Source: Desulfobacula sp. (lineage in GTDB: Bacteria > Desulfobacterota > Desulfobacteria > Desulfobacterales > Desulfobacteraceae). Taken from it: DNA of 64,000 nucleotides. Every line of letters starts with the position of its first letter. Within the stretch, counting starts at the first letter, position 1. Location: assembly GCA_018645325.1 (NCBI GenBank), contig JABGOU010000007.1, positions 1 to 64,000 of the forward strand, read 5' to 3'. The notes below the pieces were generated by a model. That model did no database searches, had not been told where the DNA came from, and saw only the letters and a program-made list of their open reading frames with translations. The position numbers and the translations under genes were made by a program. Positions 46,176 through 54,648 of this stretch are shown here, piece after piece.

Positions 46176-47087
46176 TTATGTCAAAAACTCTTTTATCAAG
46201 GTTTCAGCCTCATGACCTTGAGAAGGCTTAAGCCAATTAATACTATTATCTTTATTAAACCATGTAAATTGCCTTTTGGCATATCGTCTTGTATCCCTTT
46301 TTAACAGCCTTACTGCTTCTTCCCAATCGACTTCATTGGTTATGAACATTGCCATATGCTTATACCCAATGGATTGCATGGATTTTAAGTTAAATGAATA
46401 ACCCTTTTGAGCCAGGGTTGTCACTTCTTTGAGCAGCCCTTGATGAAGCATCTTGTCAACCCTTTTATTTATTCGGTCATAAAGCTTTTCCCTGTCCATA
46501 TATAATCCAATTTTAAAATACTTATATCTTATGTCCTCAAAGTTATGGTTTTTTTGACGATCAGAAATTTTCCGGCCGCTAGTCAGAAAAACCTCTAATG
46601 CTCTAATCACTCTGAAAGAATCATTGGGATGTATTTTTTTTGCAGCATCAGGGTCATATTTTTTAAGTTTTTGATAAAGGCTTGTGCTCCCATTTTCTTC
46701 AAGTTCTATGGTTAATTGATTTAATATTTTCGAACTTATAGGCTTTGACCGGAACAATCCATTTAAAAGTGCCCTGATGTAAAGTCCTGTGCCACCAGTT
46801 ATAATGGGAACTTTTCCACGAGTGGTAATATCTTCGATAGCATTATCGGCAGTTTTAGCGTATCGACCCGCATCAAAATCCTCTTTTGGATCAACAAAAT
46901 CTACAAGATGATGCCGTGCCAGTTTTAATTCTTCAGAACTTGGTTTAGCAGTACCGATATCCATGTGTTTGTAAATTTGCATTGAATCTGCACCTATAAT
47001 TTCTCCATTAAAACGCCTGGCAATCGAGATGGCAAAAGAGGTTTTTCCTATTCCAGTGGGGCCGCAAATTACAATAATTTTTTTCAT
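46176..47087 (-). CDS. miaA: tRNA dimethylallyltransferase
   Basis: 303 aa. P-loop VICGPTGIGKTSFAISIARR at the N-terminus. The DSMQIYKHMDIGTAKPS block and the HHLVDFVDPKEDFDAG block are typical, followed by PIITGGTGLYIRALLNG. The C-terminal RRYAKRQFTWFNKD segment contacts tRNA. It isopentenylates A37 of UNN-reading tRNAs. It is divergent from hdrA, with about 150 bp between starts. Confidence 0.95.
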   Translation of the reverse strand: MKKIIVICGPTGIGKTSFAISIARRFNGEIIGADSMQIYKHMDIGTAKPSSEELKLARHHLVDFVDPKEDFDAGRYAKTADNAIEDITTRGKVPIITGGTGLYIRALLNGLFRSKPISSKILNQLTIELEENGSTSLYQKLKKYDPDAAKKIHPNDSFRVIRALEVFLTSGRKISDRQKNHNFEDIRYKYFKIGLYMDREKLYDRINKRVDKMLHQGLLKEVTTLAQKGYSFNLKSMQSIGYKHMAMFITNEVDWEEAVRLLKRDTRRYAKRQFTWFNKDNSINWLKPSQGHEAETLIKEFLT

Positions 47088-47146: not shown

Positions 47147-47159
47147 ATAGCACTTTGGT

Positions 47160-47191
47160 ATGAAAAATATAAGATTTTATATATTTTTCAT
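47160..47191 (+). promoter_or_regulatory. 12-bp perfect palindrome in the hdrA leader
   Basis: ATGAAAAATATA (47160-47171) and its exact complement (47180-47191) flank an 8-nt spacer. It begins 13 bp after the predicted -10 box and ends 45 bp before the ATG. It could be a repressor operator or a leader hairpin; the AT-rich arms leave both open. Confidence 0.55.
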
Positions 47192-47236
47192 AATGAAGAA
47201 ACATTATGATATAAATTGCAACAGGAGAAAACTAAT

Positions 47237-50200
47237 ATGAGTAATAAACTAACCGGATCTGTGGTTGTTATTGGTGGCGGTATTTCCGGCATGCTTTCAG
47301 CTCTTGATCTTGCAAATTCCGGGTACTATGTTTATTTGGTGGAAAAAGGTCCTTCAATTGGCGGAGTTATGGCCCAGCTTGACAAGACCTTTCCAACAAA
47401 TGACTGTGCAATGTGAATTATCTCACCCACACTGGTCGAGGTCGGCCGGCATTTAAATATAGAACTTCTAACGCTTTCAGAAGTAATTGATGTAAAAGGT
47501 GAGAAAGGAAATTTTCAGGTCGAAATTCTGAAAAAGCCCAGGTATGTAGATGTAAATCTGTGTGTCGGATGTGGGGCCTGTGCAGAAAAATGTCCAGGCA
47601 AATTTGATGATACCTATAATGCGGATTTAATTAAACGGACTGCCATTTATGTAGAATATCCCCAGGCGGTTCCACTGAAATACGCTATTAATCCAGATAT
47701 CTGCTTAAAATTAACTAAGGATAAATGCGGGACCTGTGAGGATGTATGTCCTGCCAACGCAATTGATTATACACAAACCAAGGAAAAAATAAACATTGAA
47801 GCCGGATCAATTATTTTCTCTCCGGGATTCACCCCTTTTGATCCTGAAAAATTTGATAATTATCAATATGCTAATTTTCCAAACGTTGTGACATCCATGG
47901 AATTTGAACGAATTCTGTCGGCTACTGGACCTACCATGGGACATGTTACAACTTTTCCACAATTGCCGATAAATCCTAAAAAGAAAAAAGACAAACTGCT
48001 TGCTGAAAAAAGGAAGGATCCCAAAAAAATAGCATGGTTCCAATGTGTGGGATCAAGAGATATAAACAAGTGTGACAACCCTTATTGTTCTTCTGTCTGC
48101 TGCATGTATGCAGTTAAAGAGGCAATTATCGCCAAAGAACATGCCGGAGGCGATCTGGACTGTTCTATTTTTTATATGGATATGAGAACACCAGGTAAAG
48201 AATTCGAAAAATTTTATCAGAACGCTAAAGATAAACATGGAGTTAATTTTATTCGATCAAGAGTTCACTCTGTAACTGAAAATCCTCAGACCCATGATCT
48301 GAATATCCGATATGTGGACGAATTGGGTCAAATAGTCCATGACACCTATGACATGATTGTTTTGTCTGTGGGTCTGGAAATTTCAAATGAGACCAAAGAA
48401 CTATCCCATAAACTTGGAATTGATCTAACACCTAACGGGTTTTGCAAGACCGATTCATTTGAACCTGTCTCAAGTTCCAGAGATGGTATTTATGTGTCAG
48501 GTGTATTTAATAATCCCAAGGACATTCCTGAATCGGTTCTAGATGCCAGTGCAGCAGCATCTGCTGCAGGAGATGCTTTAAGTGCAGCCAGAAATACGCT
48601 TACTAAAGCTATTGAAAAAATACCGGAAATCAATGTTATAGGTGAGCGACCCAGAATCGGAGCCTTTATTTGTGACTGTGGATCTAATATAAATGGTGTT
48701 GTAGATTGTCCGGATGTCACTGAATATGCAAAAACATTACCCTATGTCGAATTTGCCGATGAGGCCATGTATGCATGCAGCCAGGATGCCCAGGCTAAGA
48801 TGGTTGAATACATCAAAGAGAAGAACCTGAACCGGATTGTTATTGCAGCCTGCACACCCAAAACCCATGAACCACTTTTTCAGGAAACACTGGCCAACGC
48901 AGGGTTAAATAAATACCTGTTTGAAATGACCAATATTCGAAACCATAATTCCTGGGTCCATAAAAACAATCCTGAAATTGCTACCCAAAAAGCCAAAGAT
49001 CTTGTCAGAATGGCTGTGGCCAAGGCTGCTTTAGCGGAGCCGTTAAAAGAAGAAAAAATTACTGTAAATGATTCGATTTTAATTATTGGTGGCGGATTAG
49101 CGGGTATGACTTCTGCAAAAAGCCTTGCGACTCAAGGATATAAAACCCATATTGTTGAGAAAAAAGACAAATTGGGCGGTGAGGCTCATAAGCTTTACAG
49201 AACTGCTCAGGGTGAAGATGTTCAGTCCAAACTCAATGAGTTGATCAAAGAAATTGAAAGTAACGACAATATAATTGTTCATAATAATACCACTCTTGAA
49301 AGCGTTGACGGGTTTGTGGGAAACTTTAAATCAACCCTGAAAAACAATGATAAAGAGTTTGAACTTGAATATGGAGTAGCTGTTCTGGCAACGGGAGCCA
49401 AAGCCTTTGTACCAGATGAATATAAATATGGGAAAGATAGCAGGATTATCACTTCTCTTGATCTGGATAAAATGTTTAAAACCAATGATGTGGATCTTGA
49501 TAGGGTGAACAGTGCAGTTTTTATTCAGTGTGTGGGATCAAGACAGCCTGACCGCCCCTATTGTTCCAGAGTCTGCTGCACGCATTCCATCGACAATGCC
49601 ATTGAACTCAAAGAGCGTAAGCCTGATATGGATATTTTTATTCTTTATCGGGATATTAGAACCTATGGTGAAAGAGAGCTTTTATATAAGAAAGCAAGAG
49701 AGCTTGGAGTTATCTTTATCCGATATGATGTAGACAAAAAGCCGCAAGTCAGGATTGATAACAGCCAACTTTTTATCAGGGTTAATGATCATGTGTTGAA
49801 TAAACCTATTGAAATAGAAGCTGATCTGCTTACCCTTGCAGTTGCATTGGTTCCAAGAAAAGATGAGACACTTGCCAATTTCTTTAAAGTACCGTTAAAC
49901 GATGAAGGTTTTTTTGTTGAAAAGCATGCAAAATTAGGCCCTGCTGAATTTGCAACAGATGGTGTTTTTGTTTGTGGTTCAGGCCACTATCCAAAACCTG
50001 TTAACGAAGCAATTACCCAGGGAAGAGCATCTGCTTCAAGAGCACTTACACTTCTTGCCAAAAAGGACAGCCTTTTCACAAGCGGAACCGTCGCAAGTGT
50101 TGATCCGTTAAAATGCAGTCAATGTGGCGTTTGTGTATCCATTTGTCCCTACTCAGCACCACTATTTTTAACAGAAGGCAGATTTGAAGGAAAAGCAGAT

Positions 50201-50329
50201 GTAAATGCAGTGCTTTGTAAAGGCTGCGGACTCTGTGTTGCATCTTGCAGATCCGGTGCCCTGCATCTTCGAGGCTTTGATACAAATCAGATTTTTTCAC
50301 AAATATATGCAATGAGTGAAGTGGTTTAA
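47237..50329 (+). CDS. hdrA: HdrA-like flavin/iron-sulfur protein, selenocysteine-containing
   Basis: 1030 aa with Sec60 encoded by TGA 47414-47416; AGGAG lies 9 nt before ATG 47237. Order: FAD domain 1 ([21 protein letters not shown] then Sec then IISP, a Cys in most HdrA), ferredoxin-type clusters (C109-C119 and C156-C171), then the domain that opens classical HdrA ([19 protein letters not shown]). FAD domain 2 follows from about 613 ([15 protein letters not shown]) and two [4Fe-4S] motifs ([23 protein letters not shown]). HdrA is the electron-bifurcating core of heterodisulfide reductase. It is first in an operon with flxD, flxC, flxB and flxA. hdrB and hdrC are absent. Confidence 0.94.
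47432..47449 (+). promoter_or_regulatory. Putative SECIS hairpin in hdrA
   Basis: 15 nt after the UGA a 6-bp stem (CUGGUC pairing with GGCCGG, two G-U pairs) closes the loop GAGGUC. The loop starts 22 nt after the UGA and carries the GGU core also seen in characterised bacterial SECIS loops. It matches the selD and flxD hairpins in position. Confidence 0.75.
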
Positions 50330-50344
50330 AGGAGATATTAGATA

Positions 50345-50767
50345 ATGGCTGATCAAGATATTAAAATTGTAAGTTTTCTTTGCAACTGGTGCAGCTATGG
50401 CGCAGCAGATCTTGCAGGTGTCAGCAGGATGGAATATCCGGCAGATATAAGAGTTATAAGGATACCCTGTTCCGGAAGGATGAGTCCAAAATTCATACTT
50501 TCTGCATTCAGGGAAGGAGCTGATGCAGTATGGGTGTCCGGCTGACATCCGGGTGAATGTCATTACCTGGATGGTAATTATTATGCGCGCAGAAAATTTG
50601 CTTTAATGGGAAATCTTTTCGAACATATGGGAATTGAACGGGACAGAATTCATTTTTCCTGGATCTCATCTGCAGAGGCAACAAAATTTGTGGATGTGGT
50701 TAAAGAGATTTCAGATAAAGTAAGGGCACTTGGGCCAAATAAGAAACTTGTAAAGGACTATAATTAA
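50345..50767 (+). CDS. flxD: MvhD/FlxD-like [2Fe-2S] electron-transfer subunit, selenocysteine-containing
   Basis: 140 aa with Sec67 at TGA 50543-50545; read without Sec the gene would stop at 66 residues. The N-terminal half is typical MvhD ([48 protein letters not shown]). After Sec the frame continues [20 protein letters not shown], also typical, to TAA at 50765-50767. Sec replaces the Cys of the usual CHPGDCHY motif, a [2Fe-2S] ligand in MvhD. The protein would relay electrons between the Flx NADH-oxidising module and HdrA. AAGGAG precedes the ATG, 15 bp after hdrA. Confidence 0.94.
50562..50578 (+). promoter_or_regulatory. Putative SECIS hairpin in flxD
   Basis: 16 nt after the UGA a perfect 6-bp stem (AUUACC with GGUAAU) closes a 5-nt loop UGGAU. 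The loop starts 23 nt after the UGA. All pairs are Watson-Crick. Confidence 0.75.
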
Positions 50768-50779
50768 AAAGGTAAGTTT

Positions 50780-51727
50780 ATGAATACCTGTATAAATAAA
50801 ATCAGGGAGCTGGCTTTGGAACTTCTGGATAAAAAAGAGGTTGAAAAAGTTATTGGTTTTGCAAACGGAACCATTCCCCTGGCAACAAGTCCTATTGCCA
50901 TAACATCAAAACAAGATATTGAAAAACTTGTTTTTAATTCAACATGCGGACTTAATCTTGCCAATTACTTAAGAGATCAAAAAGGTAAAATAGCTGTTAT
51001 TGCCAAAGGATGTGATACAAGAAATATTGTCACTCATATTGTAGAAAACCAGATCAAACGAGATCAACTTTTTATTATAGGAGTTCCCTGCAATGGAATG
51101 ATTGATCAATTCAAGATTGCAGCATTGTTTAATGATGAGATCATTGAATTTTCTGAAGATGGTGATACACTTAATATTAAATCTTCCTTAAAAGAAGAAA
51201 AATTATACAAGAAAGATTATTTAAGAGAAAACTGCAAGGTTTGCATGCATAAAAACCCTGTGATTTATGATGTACTGGCAATGGATCTTGTTGAGGAACA
51301 AACTCTTGACAATCCCTATCCGGATGTTGACAAAATTGAAGCTATGGATTCGGATAAAAAATGGCAGCACTTTCAAGATTTAACTAAAAATTGTATACGT
51401 TGTTATGCCTGCAAAAATGCATGCCCCTTATGTTATTGCCCCACCTGCTTTGTAGATGAATCAAGCCCCCAGTGGGTTGGCAAAGGTCAGAATAAAACTG
51501 ATGTAAACACATTTCATTATTTAAGGGCATTTCATTGTGCAGGTCGTTGTACTGACTGTGGTGCATGTGTCCAAGCCTGCCCCATGGATATTAATGTCAG
51601 AGATTTTACAAGAAAATTAAATAAAGATTCATTTGAAATGTTTGGCTGGGAAGCAGGATTAGATATCACCAAACGTCCACCCCTGGACGCATACAGTCCG
51701 GATGATCCCGACGATTTTATCAAGTAA
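50780..51727 (+). CDS. flxC: FlxC-like iron-sulfur protein (4Fe-4S dicluster)
   Basis: 315 aa. The N-terminal two thirds resemble an FrhB/FdhB-type domain (VIGFANGTIPLATSPIAI; IAVIAKGCDTRNIVTHIVE; VPCNGMID) with an extra CKVCMHKNP. The C-terminus holds two cysteine groups: CIRCYACKNACPLCYCPTC, and RCTDCGACVQACPMDINV. It fits the FlxC subunit position in FlxABCD-type NADH dehydrogenases. Electron relay between FlxB and FlxD/HdrA is inferred. It is separated from flxD by 12 bp. The name rests on gene order and motifs. Confidence 0.75.
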   Translation: MNTCINKIRELALELLDKKEVEKVIGFANGTIPLATSPIAITSKQDIEKLVFNSTCGLNLANYLRDQKGKIAVIAKGCDTRNIVTHIVENQIKRDQLFIIGVPCNGMIDQFKIAALFNDEIIEFSEDGDTLNIKSSLKEEKLYKKDYLRENCKVCMHKNPVIYDVLAMDLVEEQTLDNPYPDVDKIEAMDSDKKWQHFQDLTKNCIRCYACKNACPLCYCPTCFVDESSPQWVGKGQNKTDVNTFHYLRAFHCAGRCTDCGACVQACPMDINVRDFTRKLNKDSFEMFGWEAGLDITKRPPLDAYSPDDPDDFIK

Positions 51728-51743
51728 ACAAAAAGGGTATACA

Positions 51744-52796
51744 ATGAAATTTATAACAATTGATAAAAAAGACTGGGCCAATGGCATTGGAAAATCAAGG
51801 AAGACCTATAAGCTTTTTGGTCCTGTTAAAGATAAAAACGGCTTTCTTATCAAAAGCCTTGAAAAGGATATCATGCCTGAAATGGATTATCCTGATTCAG
51901 TTATGTCAGCAAAATCTATTATTTTTCCCCAGACTGAAAAGATGCTTTGCACAACTCTGGATGAGTCACAAGAAGAACACCACATCATGAAAAGAGTGGA
52001 AATGGACAACTCACCAAGAGCAATTTTGGGTATCAGGCCTTATGATGCTAAAGCAATTCAGATTGTTAATCTTAATTTTGATACAGATGACTTTCGTGAT
52101 CCATACTGGTGTGATGCATTGAACGCAACAACATTGATAGGTTTGGGCATCAACAAACCAGGCCCATTTGATTTTTCCACTTCTACCGGGACAGGACCCT
52201 TTTGTGAAGAAGGTCTTGATATTCTCATGGCTGATCTTGATGATAAATATCTGGCAAAGATCCTGACAGATAAAGGCAAGGCCTTTATGGATGTATGTGA
52301 GTTTGAAATCAAAGCTGATGAAAAGGAAAGCCAGGCACTTTTTGATATTTTAAGGAAAGAAGCAGAAAAAAACATTAAATCCCATATTGATACGGATAAA
52401 TTAAGTGAGAAGACCATACTTGAGCTTCATGATGCTCCTTTCTGGGATGATGTTGCATTCTCCTGTATCAATTGCGGAACCTGCACCTTTGTCTGTCCAA
52501 CCTGCTGGTGTTTTGACATTCAGGATGAAACCAAGCAAAAATCATCCATCAGATTTCGAAACTGGGACACCTGTATGTCGTCATTATTTACCCGGCATGC
52601 CACAGGACATAATCCAAGGGCTACAAAGACCCAGCGGGTCCGCCAAAGATTTATGCATAAATTGAAATACTTTTTTGACAAATACGATCAGGGAATCATG
52701 TGTGTTGGATGCGGCAGATGCGTTAAAAGCTGCCCGGTCAATATCGACATTCGTGAAGTGTGCAATATTATGAACACATATAAAAAACAAGATTAG
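51744..52796 (+). CDS. flxB: FlxB-like iron-sulfur protein (AsrA/hydrogenase beta-like)
   Basis: 350 aa from ATG 51744, with AAAAGGG upstream. An N-terminal domain of unknown fold (RAILGIRPYDAKAIQIVNLNF is characteristic of this family) precedes a C-terminal ferredoxin pair: FSCINCGTCTFVCPTCWCFD and MCVGCGRCVKSCPVNIDI. It resembles sulfite reductase subunit A (AsrA) and sulfhydrogenase beta subunits. It passes electrons from the flavoprotein subunit encoded next. Gene order hdrA-flxD-flxC-flxB-flxA matches that described for FlxABCD-HdrABC in Desulfovibrio, apart from missing hdrBC. Confidence 0.8.
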   Translation: MKFITIDKKDWANGIGKSRKTYKLFGPVKDKNGFLIKSLEKDIMPEMDYPDSVMSAKSIIFPQTEKMLCTTLDESQEEHHIMKRVEMDNSPRAILGIRPYDAKAIQIVNLNFDTDDFRDPYWCDALNATTLIGLGINKPGPFDFSTSTGTGPFCEEGLDILMADLDDKYLAKILTDKGKAFMDVCEFEIKADEKESQALFDILRKEAEKNIKSHIDTDKLSEKTILELHDAPFWDDVAFSCINCGTCTFVCPTCWCFDIQDETKQKSSIRFRNWDTCMSSLFTRHATGHNPRATKTQRVRQRFMHKLKYFFDKYDQGIMCVGCGRCVKSCPVNIDIREVCNIMNTYKKQD

Positions 52797-52813
52797 CGAA
52801 CAAAGGAGGAACC

Positions 52814-53659
52814 ATGGAAAACCCATATATACCGTATCCGGTTCGCATTGATGATATTGAAATTGCAACTGAAGACAAATCTTTAAAAACATTTAAATTT
52901 GTGTTTTTAAACAAGGAAGATGAAGAAAAATTTTCATATCAGGCCGGGCAGTTTGCGGAATTATCCATACCAGGTATTGGAGAAATTCCCATAGGTATTG
53001 CATCTTCCCCGGTTGAAAAAGGATTTGTAAAATTTACTGTATTTAGAACCGGTGTTGTAACTTCCCACCTTCATAATATGAAGATTGGTGATATAATGGG
53101 TATCAGGGGCCCGTTGGGCAATTGGTATCCCTGGGACAAACTGGAAAATAAAAATGTTGTAATCATTGGTGGTGGATTTGCATTTACAACTTTAAGATCA
53201 TCCATCATATATATGCTCGATCCCGCCAATAGGAATAAATTCAAGAATATTGATGTGGTCTATGGTGCAAGATCTCCCGGTATGTTGCTCTATAGAGAAG
53301 AACTCTATGAATGGGAAAAACGAAGTGATATCAATATGCATATAACAGTCGATTCAACAGATGATCCAAACTGGAAATACCATACAGGATTTGTTCCCCA
53401 GATTGTTGAACAAAACGCTCCAAAAGCAGATAAGGACACATATGCCATTATCTGTGGGCCACCGATCATGATTAAATTCACCCAGCCTTCCTTAACCCAA
53501 CTCGGGTACAAGGAAGATCAAATTATCATGTCACTTGAAAACAAGATGAAATGTGGAATCGGCATGTGCGGCAGATGCAATATTGGAAAAGAACTTGTTT
53601 GTAAAGATGGTCCAGTCTTTACTCTTGAACAGATTAACCAAACACCGAAAGAATATTAA
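52814..53659 (+). CDS. flxA: FlxA-like FAD/NAD(P)-binding oxidoreductase subunit
   Basis: 281 aa of the ferredoxin-reductase/PyrK-AsrB type. The FAD domain covers about 1-110 (FAELSIPGIGEIPIGIASSP, with MGIRGPLGNWYP). The NAD domain follows (VVIIGGGFAFTTLRSS; YGARSPGMLLYREEL; ICGPPIMIKF). A C-terminal [2Fe-2S] motif is CGIGMCGRCNIGKELVC. It should oxidise NADH and hand electrons to FlxB. AGGAGG precedes the ATG. No terminator is visible after it; dsrC has its own promoter 18 bp downstream. Confidence 0.88.
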   Translation: MENPYIPYPVRIDDIEIATEDKSLKTFKFVFLNKEDEEKFSYQAGQFAELSIPGIGEIPIGIASSPVEKGFVKFTVFRTGVVTSHLHNMKIGDIMGIRGPLGNWYPWDKLENKNVVIIGGGFAFTTLRSSIIYMLDPANRNKFKNIDVVYGARSPGMLLYREELYEWEKRSDINMHITVDSTDDPNWKYHTGFVPQIVEQNAPKADKDTYAIICGPPIMIKFTQPSLTQLGYKEDQIIMSLENKMKCGIGMCGRCNIGKELVCKDGPVFTLEQINQTPKEY

Positions 53660-53676
53660 CCGGGTTTTATTTTATA

Positions 53677-53706
53677 TTGACAAATAAGTATTGCTTAAGA
53701 TATATT
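53677..53706 (+). promoter_or_regulatory. Putative sigma-70 promoter of dsrC
   Basis: TTGACA (53677-53682) and TATATT (53701-53706), spaced 18 bp, lie in the 123-bp gap after flxA. A strong AGGAGG sits at about 53769-53774 before the dsrC ATG. It allows dsrC expression above the operon level. Confidence 0.55.
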
Positions 53707-53782
53707 CATGCTTTAATTATTGAAACTAAGGCGGTATGCCTTAAAAGAACAATAAAAAACTTTTTATAGGAGGTAATTTTAG

Positions 53783-54100
53783 ATGGCGACAATTGAATTC
53801 AATGGGAAACCTTTCGAAATAGACGAAGATGGATTCCTTCTTGATTATAATACGTATTGTGAGGAGTGGGTTGACTATGTAAAAGGTCAGGAAGGTATTG
53901 AAGAGCTTACTGATGAACATTGGACACTTATAAAAGTTCTCCAAGACTATTATGAAAAAAATGGTATTGCTCCAATGGTTCGTGTTCTTTCCAAGCTGAC
54001 CAAGTTTAAATTAAAACATATCTATGAACTTTTTCCTTCAGGACCAGGAAAAGGTGCATGTAAAATGGCTGGTCTTCCAAAACCAACCGGATGTGTATAG
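53783..54100 (+). CDS. dsrC: DsrC sulfur carrier of dissimilatory sulfite reduction
   Basis: 105 aa. The C-terminal arm CKMAGLPKPTGCV has both conserved cysteines (93 and 104, ten residues between), which separates true DsrC from single-Cys TusE. The start IEFNGKPFEIDEDGFLLDY is typical. DsrC is the co-substrate of DsrAB, forming a trisulfide that is reduced at the membrane, and a proposed disulfide partner of Hdr-like complexes. It follows the hdrA-flx operon and ends at an intrinsic terminator. No dsrAB, dsrMKJOP or tus genes are nearby. Confidence 0.95.
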   Translation: MATIEFNGKPFEIDEDGFLLDYNTYCEEWVDYVKGQEGIEELTDEHWTLIKVLQDYYEKNGIAPMVRVLSKLTKFKLKHIYELFPSGPGKGACKMAGLPKPTGCV

Positions 54101-54192: not shown

Positions 54193-54648
54193 ATGCCTGT
54201 AATTAATGATAAAAACCGAGAGATACTTAATAACATCCAGGTTGATTTCCCTATTGATTCCAGACCCTATAAAATTCTTGCCCAAAAACTTGGTCTTACT
54301 GAAGAAGAGTTGATCAAAAGGATCAACCAAATGAAGAAAGAGATGCTCATAAGGCGTATTGGTGGCAATTTCAGTCCTGACAGACTTGGATACCATTCAA
54401 CCCTTTGTGCGGCCAAAGTCCCTGAGGAGAAAATAACATTATTTACAAAAACAGTTAACGCTTATTCAGGAGTTACCCACAATTATAAACGGGATCATGA
54501 ATTCAATATCTGGTTCACATTTATTGCCCCTTCTGTTGAAATTATCAAGGACAGTCTTAAACAAATACAAAAAATGACCGATGTTGAGACAATACTGAAT
54601 CTACCTGCAACAAGAGTTTTTAAAATCAGTGCCAATTTTAAATTATGA
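54193..54648 (+). CDS. Siroheme decarboxylase subunit (AhbA/AhbB, Lrp/AsnC fold)
   Basis: 151 aa. An N-terminal AsnC-type helix-turn-helix (IDSRPYKILAQKLGLTEEEL, then INQMKKEMLIRRIGGNF) precedes an RAM-like domain with the GVTHNYKRDHEFNIWFT segment. That segment is a signature of AhbA/AhbB and NirD/L/G/H proteins rather than of Lrp regulators. They convert siroheme to didecarboxysiroheme in heme synthesis of sulfate reducers. Usually both subunits are adjacent; only one is seen here. A dedicated regulator is the less likely alternative. AAGGAG precedes the ATG. Confidence 0.78.
   Translation: MPVINDKNREILNNIQVDFPIDSRPYKILAQKLGLTEEELIKRINQMKKEMLIRRIGGNFSPDRLGYHSTLCAAKVPEEKITLFTKTVNAYSGVTHNYKRDHEFNIWFTFIAPSVEIIKDSLKQIQKMTDVETILNLPATRVFKISANFKL

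Follow-up and report, generated by a model that had tools for sequence, protein, structure and literature searches.

Where does the disulfide-reducing arm of an Hdr-type complex come from when its gene cluster carries neither hdrB nor hdrC? The question is raised by bp 47237–54100 of the 64,000-nucleotide stretch of Desulfobacula sp. DNA analyzed here (the window; contig JABGOU010000007.1, positions 1 to 64,000), in which hdrA, flxD, flxC, flxB, flxA, and dsrC follow one another on the + strand. An earlier reading made from the letters alone (the sequence-only reading) had noted this arrangement and offered three explanations: the complex has no heterodisulfide branch, DsrC contacts HdrA or FlxC directly, or HdrB and HdrC come from elsewhere. 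The gene calls and the Pfam and NCBIfam models bear out the gene order (several matches of flxD, flxB, flxA, and dsrC fall below NCBIfam's own cut-offs), and no hdrB or hdrC lies beside the cluster. An assembly gap is ruled out as the cause: the contig is 130,907 bases long and the window starts at its first base, which puts the locus away from the assembly edge, and 25 family genomes, including the one that holds the window (4.39 Mb, 157 contigs, ∼90% complete), have the same layout. We hold, with somewhat more belief than doubt, that the locus encodes an NADH-oxidizing Flx-HdrA bifurcating core whose disulfide arm, HdrC-HdrB, would be supplied in trans by a free-standing gene pair.

The free-standing hdrC-hdrB pair and its co-occurrence with the lone HdrA

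A search of the genome for free-standing hdrBC, as the sequence-only reading had suggested, finds an hdrA-free hdrC-hdrB pair at 46722–48141 of contig C74, behind nifU and nifS. Its products have CCG and Fer4 domains, and its HdrB, which has two CCG domains, aligns over its full length with solved HdrB. Since the genome carries this pair elsewhere, Flx-HdrA and HdrCB are probably combined in the cell. Homologs of the pair in relatives include class I, ∼64–89% identical, with nifU-nifS-like genes adjoining in five contexts (L193, L194, L195, L197, and L198), and class II, ∼45% identical, with no fixed neighbors in seven contexts; a few others are 55–56% identical. At L193, hdrC and hdrB are apparently fused into a single gene of 470 amino acids.

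Four types of HdrA module, discussed further below, are found before flxDCBA at this site in the family: (a) the lone HdrA of the window, (b) a NuoEF type, (c) an HdrL type, and (d) a membrane type. The association test covered 60 of 70 family genomes, with a pair homolog defined as at least 44% identical and module labels set by hand; six genomes (G016 and G018–G022) were counted as having no cassette at the site though flx lies elsewhere in them. The pair is present in 23/25 lone HdrA genomes, 2/8 of the NuoEF type, 2/4 of the HdrL type, 3/5 of the membrane type, and 3/18 with no cassette. Types b, c, and d together have it in 7/17 (Fisher p 0.001 for lone HdrA against these). Permutation within genera gives p 2e-5 over the 60 genomes and 5.5e-4 when the 42 cassette-bearing genomes are taken by themselves; some genomes look like near copies (G049/G050 and G020/G021), and dropping G007, G021, G050, and G060 leaves the within-genus p unchanged at 2e-5. 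The ten genomes left out, in which the slot was unreadable or flx is not at dsrC, include seven with a pair homolog (G003, G004, G027, G031, G042, G063, and G068) and three with none (G006, G034, and G062). In a tree of 34 HdrB proteins, both pair classes form one clade (100/100), which groups with five of six HdrB proteins of canonical hdrCBA-flx clusters and apart from the membrane type, although that fork (90/88, midpoint root) is not strong.

Several observations weigh against a trans arm. Identity between the pair HdrB and canonical Flx HdrB is only 28–29%, and L219, one of the canonical HdrB proteins, lies on the other side of the tree. A lone HdrA without the pair occurs in two genomes, G014 (a single contig, 96% complete) and G058 (88%); conversely, G005, G031 (91% complete), and G060 (81%) have a pair and no FlxA match at the cut-off, and G041 has a pair with a FlxA just 40% identical. 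The two pair classes were pooled, and the association was spotted and tested on one data set. The class I pairs inspected sit behind nifU-nifS, which allows them another role, and the genome holds further CCG proteins (32 CCG-domain matches, part of them examined). Finally, no regulatory motif shared by the hdrA and hdrC-hdrB upstream regions was seen. An FNR-type box, TTGATN4RTCAA, lies 5′ of class II hdrC in exact form in 5/7 cases (L201–L205) and with at most one mismatch in 6/7 (L199), which suggests that control of the class II pair is unlike that of hdrA-flx; all 17 hdrA upstream regions differ from this box by at least two mismatches, and a common promoter motif for hdrA and hdrCB was rejected. 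The suggestion that HdrB and HdrC come from elsewhere gains support from this pair, which tracks the lone HdrA, also within genera. The sequence-only reading had named co-regulated hdrBC elsewhere, together with relatives showing no dsrC link, as what would refute it. The outcome fits that case only in part: hdrBC does lie elsewhere, but no shared control was seen, and the dsrC neighborhood is conserved, though separable.

These data also bear on the proposal that there is no disulfide arm at all, and that lone HdrA-Flx moves NADH electrons to ferredoxin and another acceptor, or works in reverse as a ferredoxin/NADH confurcating enzyme. We think this unlikely, though it deserves a hearing. The cluster contains no CCG gene, the pair is lacking in 2/25 lone HdrA genomes (one of them G014), and the NuoEF and HdrL types have no hdrBC in cis, 8/12 such genomes having no free pair either. 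On the other hand, this proposal does not explain why the other 23/25 lone HdrA genomes carry the pair, and other HdrB-containing complexes in the relatives and in this genome could lend subunits.

Such lending is itself an alternative to a dedicated pair, and one that we rate lower still. HdrB and HdrC would then be shared with another system, for which contig C92 of this genome offers three sources: a membrane HdrC-HdrB-HdrA (49.9–55.6 kb), the HdrC-HdrB of an HdrL-MvhD cluster (9.7–17.7 kb), and an HdrCB-like gene (127–129 kb; a single frame if its TGA is read through, and a single CCG match). Membrane HdrC-HdrB stands directly before HdrA-flx at the same site in some relatives, so the pairing occurs in nature. 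The membrane and HdrL-MvhD systems each own an HdrA, however, and under sharing no association with the free pair would be expected. An HdrB group at ∼30% identity was also considered as a second candidate for the trans arm and rejected, as an HdrA of its own lies close by in 11 of 12 fetched loci (the exception is L233 of G014); by eye this group departs from the pattern of the pair, since pair-less genomes of types b and d have it (G040, G057, G059, G065, G015, G026, and G033). A stretch of contig C92 (9000–24000, L079) was seen to encode a second Hdr system, with HdrC and HdrB in a single frame that crosses a TGA, an HdrL-type HdrA (1477 amino acids), a TGA-bearing MvhD, and metV- and metF-like genes (named by eye).

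The Flx-HdrA core and its two selenoproteins

The features of the core are given here by position in the window.

47237–50329, + strand: hdrA, 1030-amino acid selenoprotein; HdrA core at residues ∼6–450, N-terminal domain and start of a second flavin domain at 470–643, C-terminal part with ferredoxin at 845–1026
47414–47416, + strand: in-frame TGA read as selenocysteine, Sec60 (NDCAMU); Cys at that place in methanogen HdrA
47432–47449, + strand: hairpin of hdrA, 7 pairs, like a selenocysteine insertion sequence (SECIS); identical in 53/53 distinct TGA-bearing sequences, synonymous positions included
50345–50767, + strand: flxD, MvhD/FlpD family, 140-amino acid selenoprotein, by Pfam/NCBIfam and comparison with solved MvhD
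50543–50545, + strand: in-frame TGA of Sec67 (VSGUHPGEC), read as selenocysteine; solved MvhD and three distant relatives have Cys
50562–50578, + strand: SECIS-like hairpin of flxD, 6 pairs, each kept in 97–100% of 72 distinct TGA-bearing sequences
50780–51727, + strand: flxC, 315-amino acid FdhB-like iron-sulfur protein, a donor-side bridge by homology
51744–52796, + strand: flxB, 350-amino acid sulfhydrogenase-beta/AsrA-like iron-sulfur protein with Fer4_22, by Pfam/NCBIfam
52814–53659, + strand: flxA, 281-amino acid FAD/NAD(P)H/2Fe-2S oxidoreductase, sulfhydrogenase-gamma/AsrB-like, by Pfam/NCBIfam

By homology, HdrA contains a bifurcating flavin core of the methanogen type and ferredoxin domains. 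It is 35–36% identical to the 5odc and 8rvu chains over ∼654 columns, and the best matches of its predicted structure (predicted local distance difference test score, pLDDT, 80.5; the model served fold comparison only) are HdrA chains. The "single double-length HdrA" of the sequence-only reading is correct for the locus, where the flavin domain is repeated, and several HdrA paralogs lie elsewhere in the genome. Profiles and structure comparison place FlxB, FlxC, and an MvhD-type FlxD all adjoining HdrA. FlxA has FAD, NAD, and 2Fe-2S domains, and no further match to it above 32% identity was found in its own genome. The best matches of the FlxC model (pLDDT 86) are 8rvu_E and 7bkb_E, both of which the profile search names formate dehydrogenase beta subunit. 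In the methanogen HdrABC-FdhAB complexes, the MvhD-type subunit receives its electrons from FdhB; the FdhB-like FlxC thus most likely belongs to the donor side, and a direct contact with DsrC is unlikely.

The FlxA family takes electrons from NADH, and a path can be proposed in which FlxA would oxidize NADH, FlxB and FlxC would relay the electrons to FlxD, and FlxD would pass them to the selenoprotein HdrA. The HdrA flavin would then split them, one to ferredoxin and one to a higher-potential acceptor, as its homology and that of MvhD suggest. The acceptor arm would be HdrC-HdrB from the trans pair, in this organism that on C74, which presumes that the HdrA-Flx and HdrC-HdrB proteins bind one another. 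DsrC is a likely but unproven disulfide acceptor, since published work ties it to the Desulfovibrio Flx-Hdr complex: it is a partner of the D. vulgaris complex according to Ferreira 2023, as cited in PMC10504309 and PMC10553843.

The hdrA frame is open only with readthrough of its TGA, and that of flxD likewise. Their conservation was counted in the loci of 56 relatives from a contig-database scan, many of them clipped at contig ends and several the same contigs as family-genome loci. Of the 53 loci readable at the flxD place, 50 have TGA and three (L070, L075, and L076) have Cys; of the 29 readable at the hdrA place, 28 have TGA and one (L075) has Cys. Solved methanogen HdrA and MvhD have Cys at both places. 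The hairpin behind each codon was followed in sequences collected with a pattern that demands the TGA, so the counts are for TGA-bearing sequences: the hdrA hairpin has the same bases in every one, third codon positions too, and that of flxD is kept in 70–72 of 72. The fold z-scores of these stretches range from −0.95 to −3.08, and covariation is unusable because the bases hardly vary; the counts show a constraint on the bases, and the pairing is predicted. The case for the flxD hairpin rests on conservation, because the lowest-energy fold of that stretch is a different hairpin that overlaps the conserved one. No SECIS family was listed in an Rfam search of the region, where all matches are far under the family cut-offs. 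A tRNA-Sec scoring 75.5 bits (cut-off 47) and a SelB scoring 337.8 bits (cut-off 242) are encoded in the genome. On this evidence (conserved TGA, Cys in homologs, hairpin bases kept, tRNA-Sec and SelB present) both in-frame TGAs are selenocysteine codons, and the conservation of TGA across relatives and of the hairpin bases rules out a frameshift or pseudogene as their source. Selenocysteine-containing HdrA and MvhD are known in D. autotrophicum (PMC2702500).

The core resembles several known systems. Like the Desulfovibrio FlxABCD-HdrABC (Hdr/flox) cluster it joins homologs of FlxA, B, C, D, and HdrA, but it differs in having no hdrB or hdrC, in its 1030-amino acid HdrA with a repeated flavin domain, in that HdrA and FlxD are both selenoproteins, and in having dsrC next door. 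It shares HdrA homology with the methanogen HdrABC-MvhAGD and HdrABC-FdhAB complexes (5odc, 7bkb, and 8rvu), its FlxD being MvhD and its FlxC like FdhB, whereas its predicted donor is NADH rather than H2 or formate and its HdrA has an extra flavin-domain copy. Genes of the HdrA and HdrBC types lie apart here as they do in Methanosarcina Hdr2, where Hdr2A is often apart from Hdr2BC, e.g., in Methanosarcina acetivorans (PMC6085437).

The 5′ side of hdrA contains a perfect 13 bp inverted repeat (47159–47192). As a candidate hdrA operator it was rejected: it recurs in 0 of 20 relatives compared, six of which carry other repeats.

dsrC as a separable neighbor

The features around dsrC, and the left border of the site, are as follows.

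46176–47087, − strand: miaA, which marks the left edge of the site in relatives with the cassette and in empty ones
53677–53706, + strand: dsrC promoter-like site, TTGACA-18-TATATT; TTGACA in 56/56 distinct upstream regions, flx-less ones included
53783–54100, + strand: dsrC, 105 amino acids, C-terminal cysteines 93 and 104, sole close dsrC of the genome
54134–54164, + strand: terminator-like hairpin 3′ of dsrC, 13 pairs and a T-rich tail
54193–54648, + strand: ahbA-type siroheme decarboxylase gene, a conserved dsrC neighbor

The DsrC protein matches the sulfite reductase gamma subunit over its full length, and its two C-terminal cysteines, ten residues apart, have the DsrC spacing. Such conserved C-terminal cysteines set DsrC apart from TusE (PMC6129605). 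The next match in the genome is a second DsrC-family protein, 34% identical (C77:19044–19331; L022 and L086).

The sequence-only reading had placed dsrC in the hdrA-flx operon. The order agrees, but dsrC probably forms, at least partly, a transcription unit by itself, as is suggested by the conserved TTGACA upstream and the terminator-like hairpin behind it. The 123-base gap between flxA and dsrC holds the promoter-like site. The 56 distinct upstream regions come from 72 loci, seven without flxA nearby, and the chance of TTGACA is ∼5% per region by shuffling, the loci being related to each other. The −10 part varies more (55/56 regions keep at least three of six consensus bases), and terminator-like stems lie 3′ of dsrC in 37/55. 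The promoter case rests on conservation, because a scan gave no excess over shuffles (two sites against 4.0 expected; terminators, two against 0.7). The dsrC leader (53707–53782) contains a small inverted repeat of the type AAGAC..GTCTT, found in 46/56 distinct upstream regions.

Moreover, dsrC persists where the cassette has been lost and is therefore not bound to it as an operon. It is found in 67 of 70 family genomes, and by hand count flxA adjoins it in 47 of the 67. In 14 genomes miaA is followed by dsrC, ahbA, and a nitrilase gene with no hdrA-flx between; among the remaining six, G002–G006 have no miaA or flxA found beside dsrC, and in G031 the contig ends there. Between miaA and dsrC of G020 and G021, which are apparently closely related, only the last 23–24 FlxA residues are left (L248 3938–4006 and L249 4082–4153); judged from sequence, this tail is the deletion scar of a lost hdrA-flx cassette. 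By gene content, then, dsrC persists at the site whereas the cassette is gained and lost: the dsrC neighborhood that the sequence-only reading wished to see checked in relatives is conserved, but it is separable from hdrA-flx, and the position of dsrC is thus weakened as a sign of partnership with Flx.

It is very improbable that DsrC docks directly on HdrA or FlxC and is reduced without a CCG subunit. The adjacency of dsrC and flxA in 47 of the 67 genomes would fit such docking, but dsrC has its own promoter-like site and stands free of the cassette in 14 genomes, and the FdhB-like character of FlxC removes support from the FlxC form of the contact, which was rejected. Furthermore, among 20 flx loci chosen by hand (seven inside the order and 13 outside), dsrC lies beside flxA in six of seven inside and beside flx in none of the 13 outside; hdrC-hdrB-hdrA-flxD-flxC-flxB-flxA is the order in six of those 13.

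HdrA modules at the miaA-dsrC site

The site was compared across two sets that overlap, 56 relatives and 60 loci of the family, and module domains were read from one example each. One of four modules precedes flxDCBA per locus: type a is the lone HdrA; type b is a 120-residue HdrA N-part, NuoE, NuoF, and a fusion of NuoG-type ferredoxin with HdrA; type c is HdrL with a GltD-like insert; and type d is a membrane HdrC with a nitrate-reductase-gamma-like domain, HdrB, and HdrA. The 42 family genomes with a readable slot have 25 of type a, eight of b, four of c, and five of d, and in further families of the order types a, b, and c likewise adjoin dsrC (L223, L224, L226, and L227). In near relatives FlxA and DsrC are 88–95% and 90–98% identical to the window proteins, and HdrA is 79–90% identical if of type a but 55–60% (main part) if of types b and d; for the short N-part found in type b, identity to window HdrA is 64–75%. 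Four family genomes, G014, G048, G043, and G050 (L179–L182), have an additional hdrA-flxDCBA cluster at a distance from dsrC, which follows an HdrC-like gene and shows no HdrB marker.

Parts of this picture have precedents. An HdrL1-MvhD-dsrC neighborhood was reported in 2009 in Desulfobacterium autotrophicum HRM2, with selenocysteine-containing HdrL and MvhD and then dsrC (PMC2702500); there too an HdrA-type selenoprotein and an MvhD-type protein (FlxD in the window) precede dsrC, but window HdrA is without the GltD-like insert of HdrL. At the same site, locus L163 has HdrL-flxDCBA-dsrC with no hdrB or hdrC marker; FlxC, FlxB, and FlxA lie between its FlxD and dsrC, the place at which PMC2702500 names dsrA and dsrB in the HRM2 cluster. 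The nuoEFG-mvhD-hdrA units of Desulfotignum phosphitoxidans (PMC4046663) are a precedent for the NuoEF-HdrA-FlxD type in relatives and differ from the layout of the window. The lone HdrA layout, in-place swapping, empty sites, and the trans hdrCB link were not found in the open-access literature, which is weak evidence of absence as several key papers lie outside it.

Taken further, and with slightly more doubt than belief, the miaA-dsrC site may be a docking place where a constant Flx donor arm meets exchangeable HdrA modules, the module (with FlxD and sometimes FlxC) being replaced in place and the free hdrC-hdrB being gained or kept with the lone module. If that is true, the bifurcating enzyme would be split, and the free pair would be a subunit that it requires and that is encoded in trans. 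A testable rule follows for the Desulfobacterales, in that where HdrA stands alone the disulfide arm of Flx should be a free-standing HdrCB; candidate genes are named in cultivable species, and the natural swaps of HdrA modules at one site allow comparison. The findings are also a warning that a dsrC neighborhood is no proof of a DsrC-Flx enzyme.

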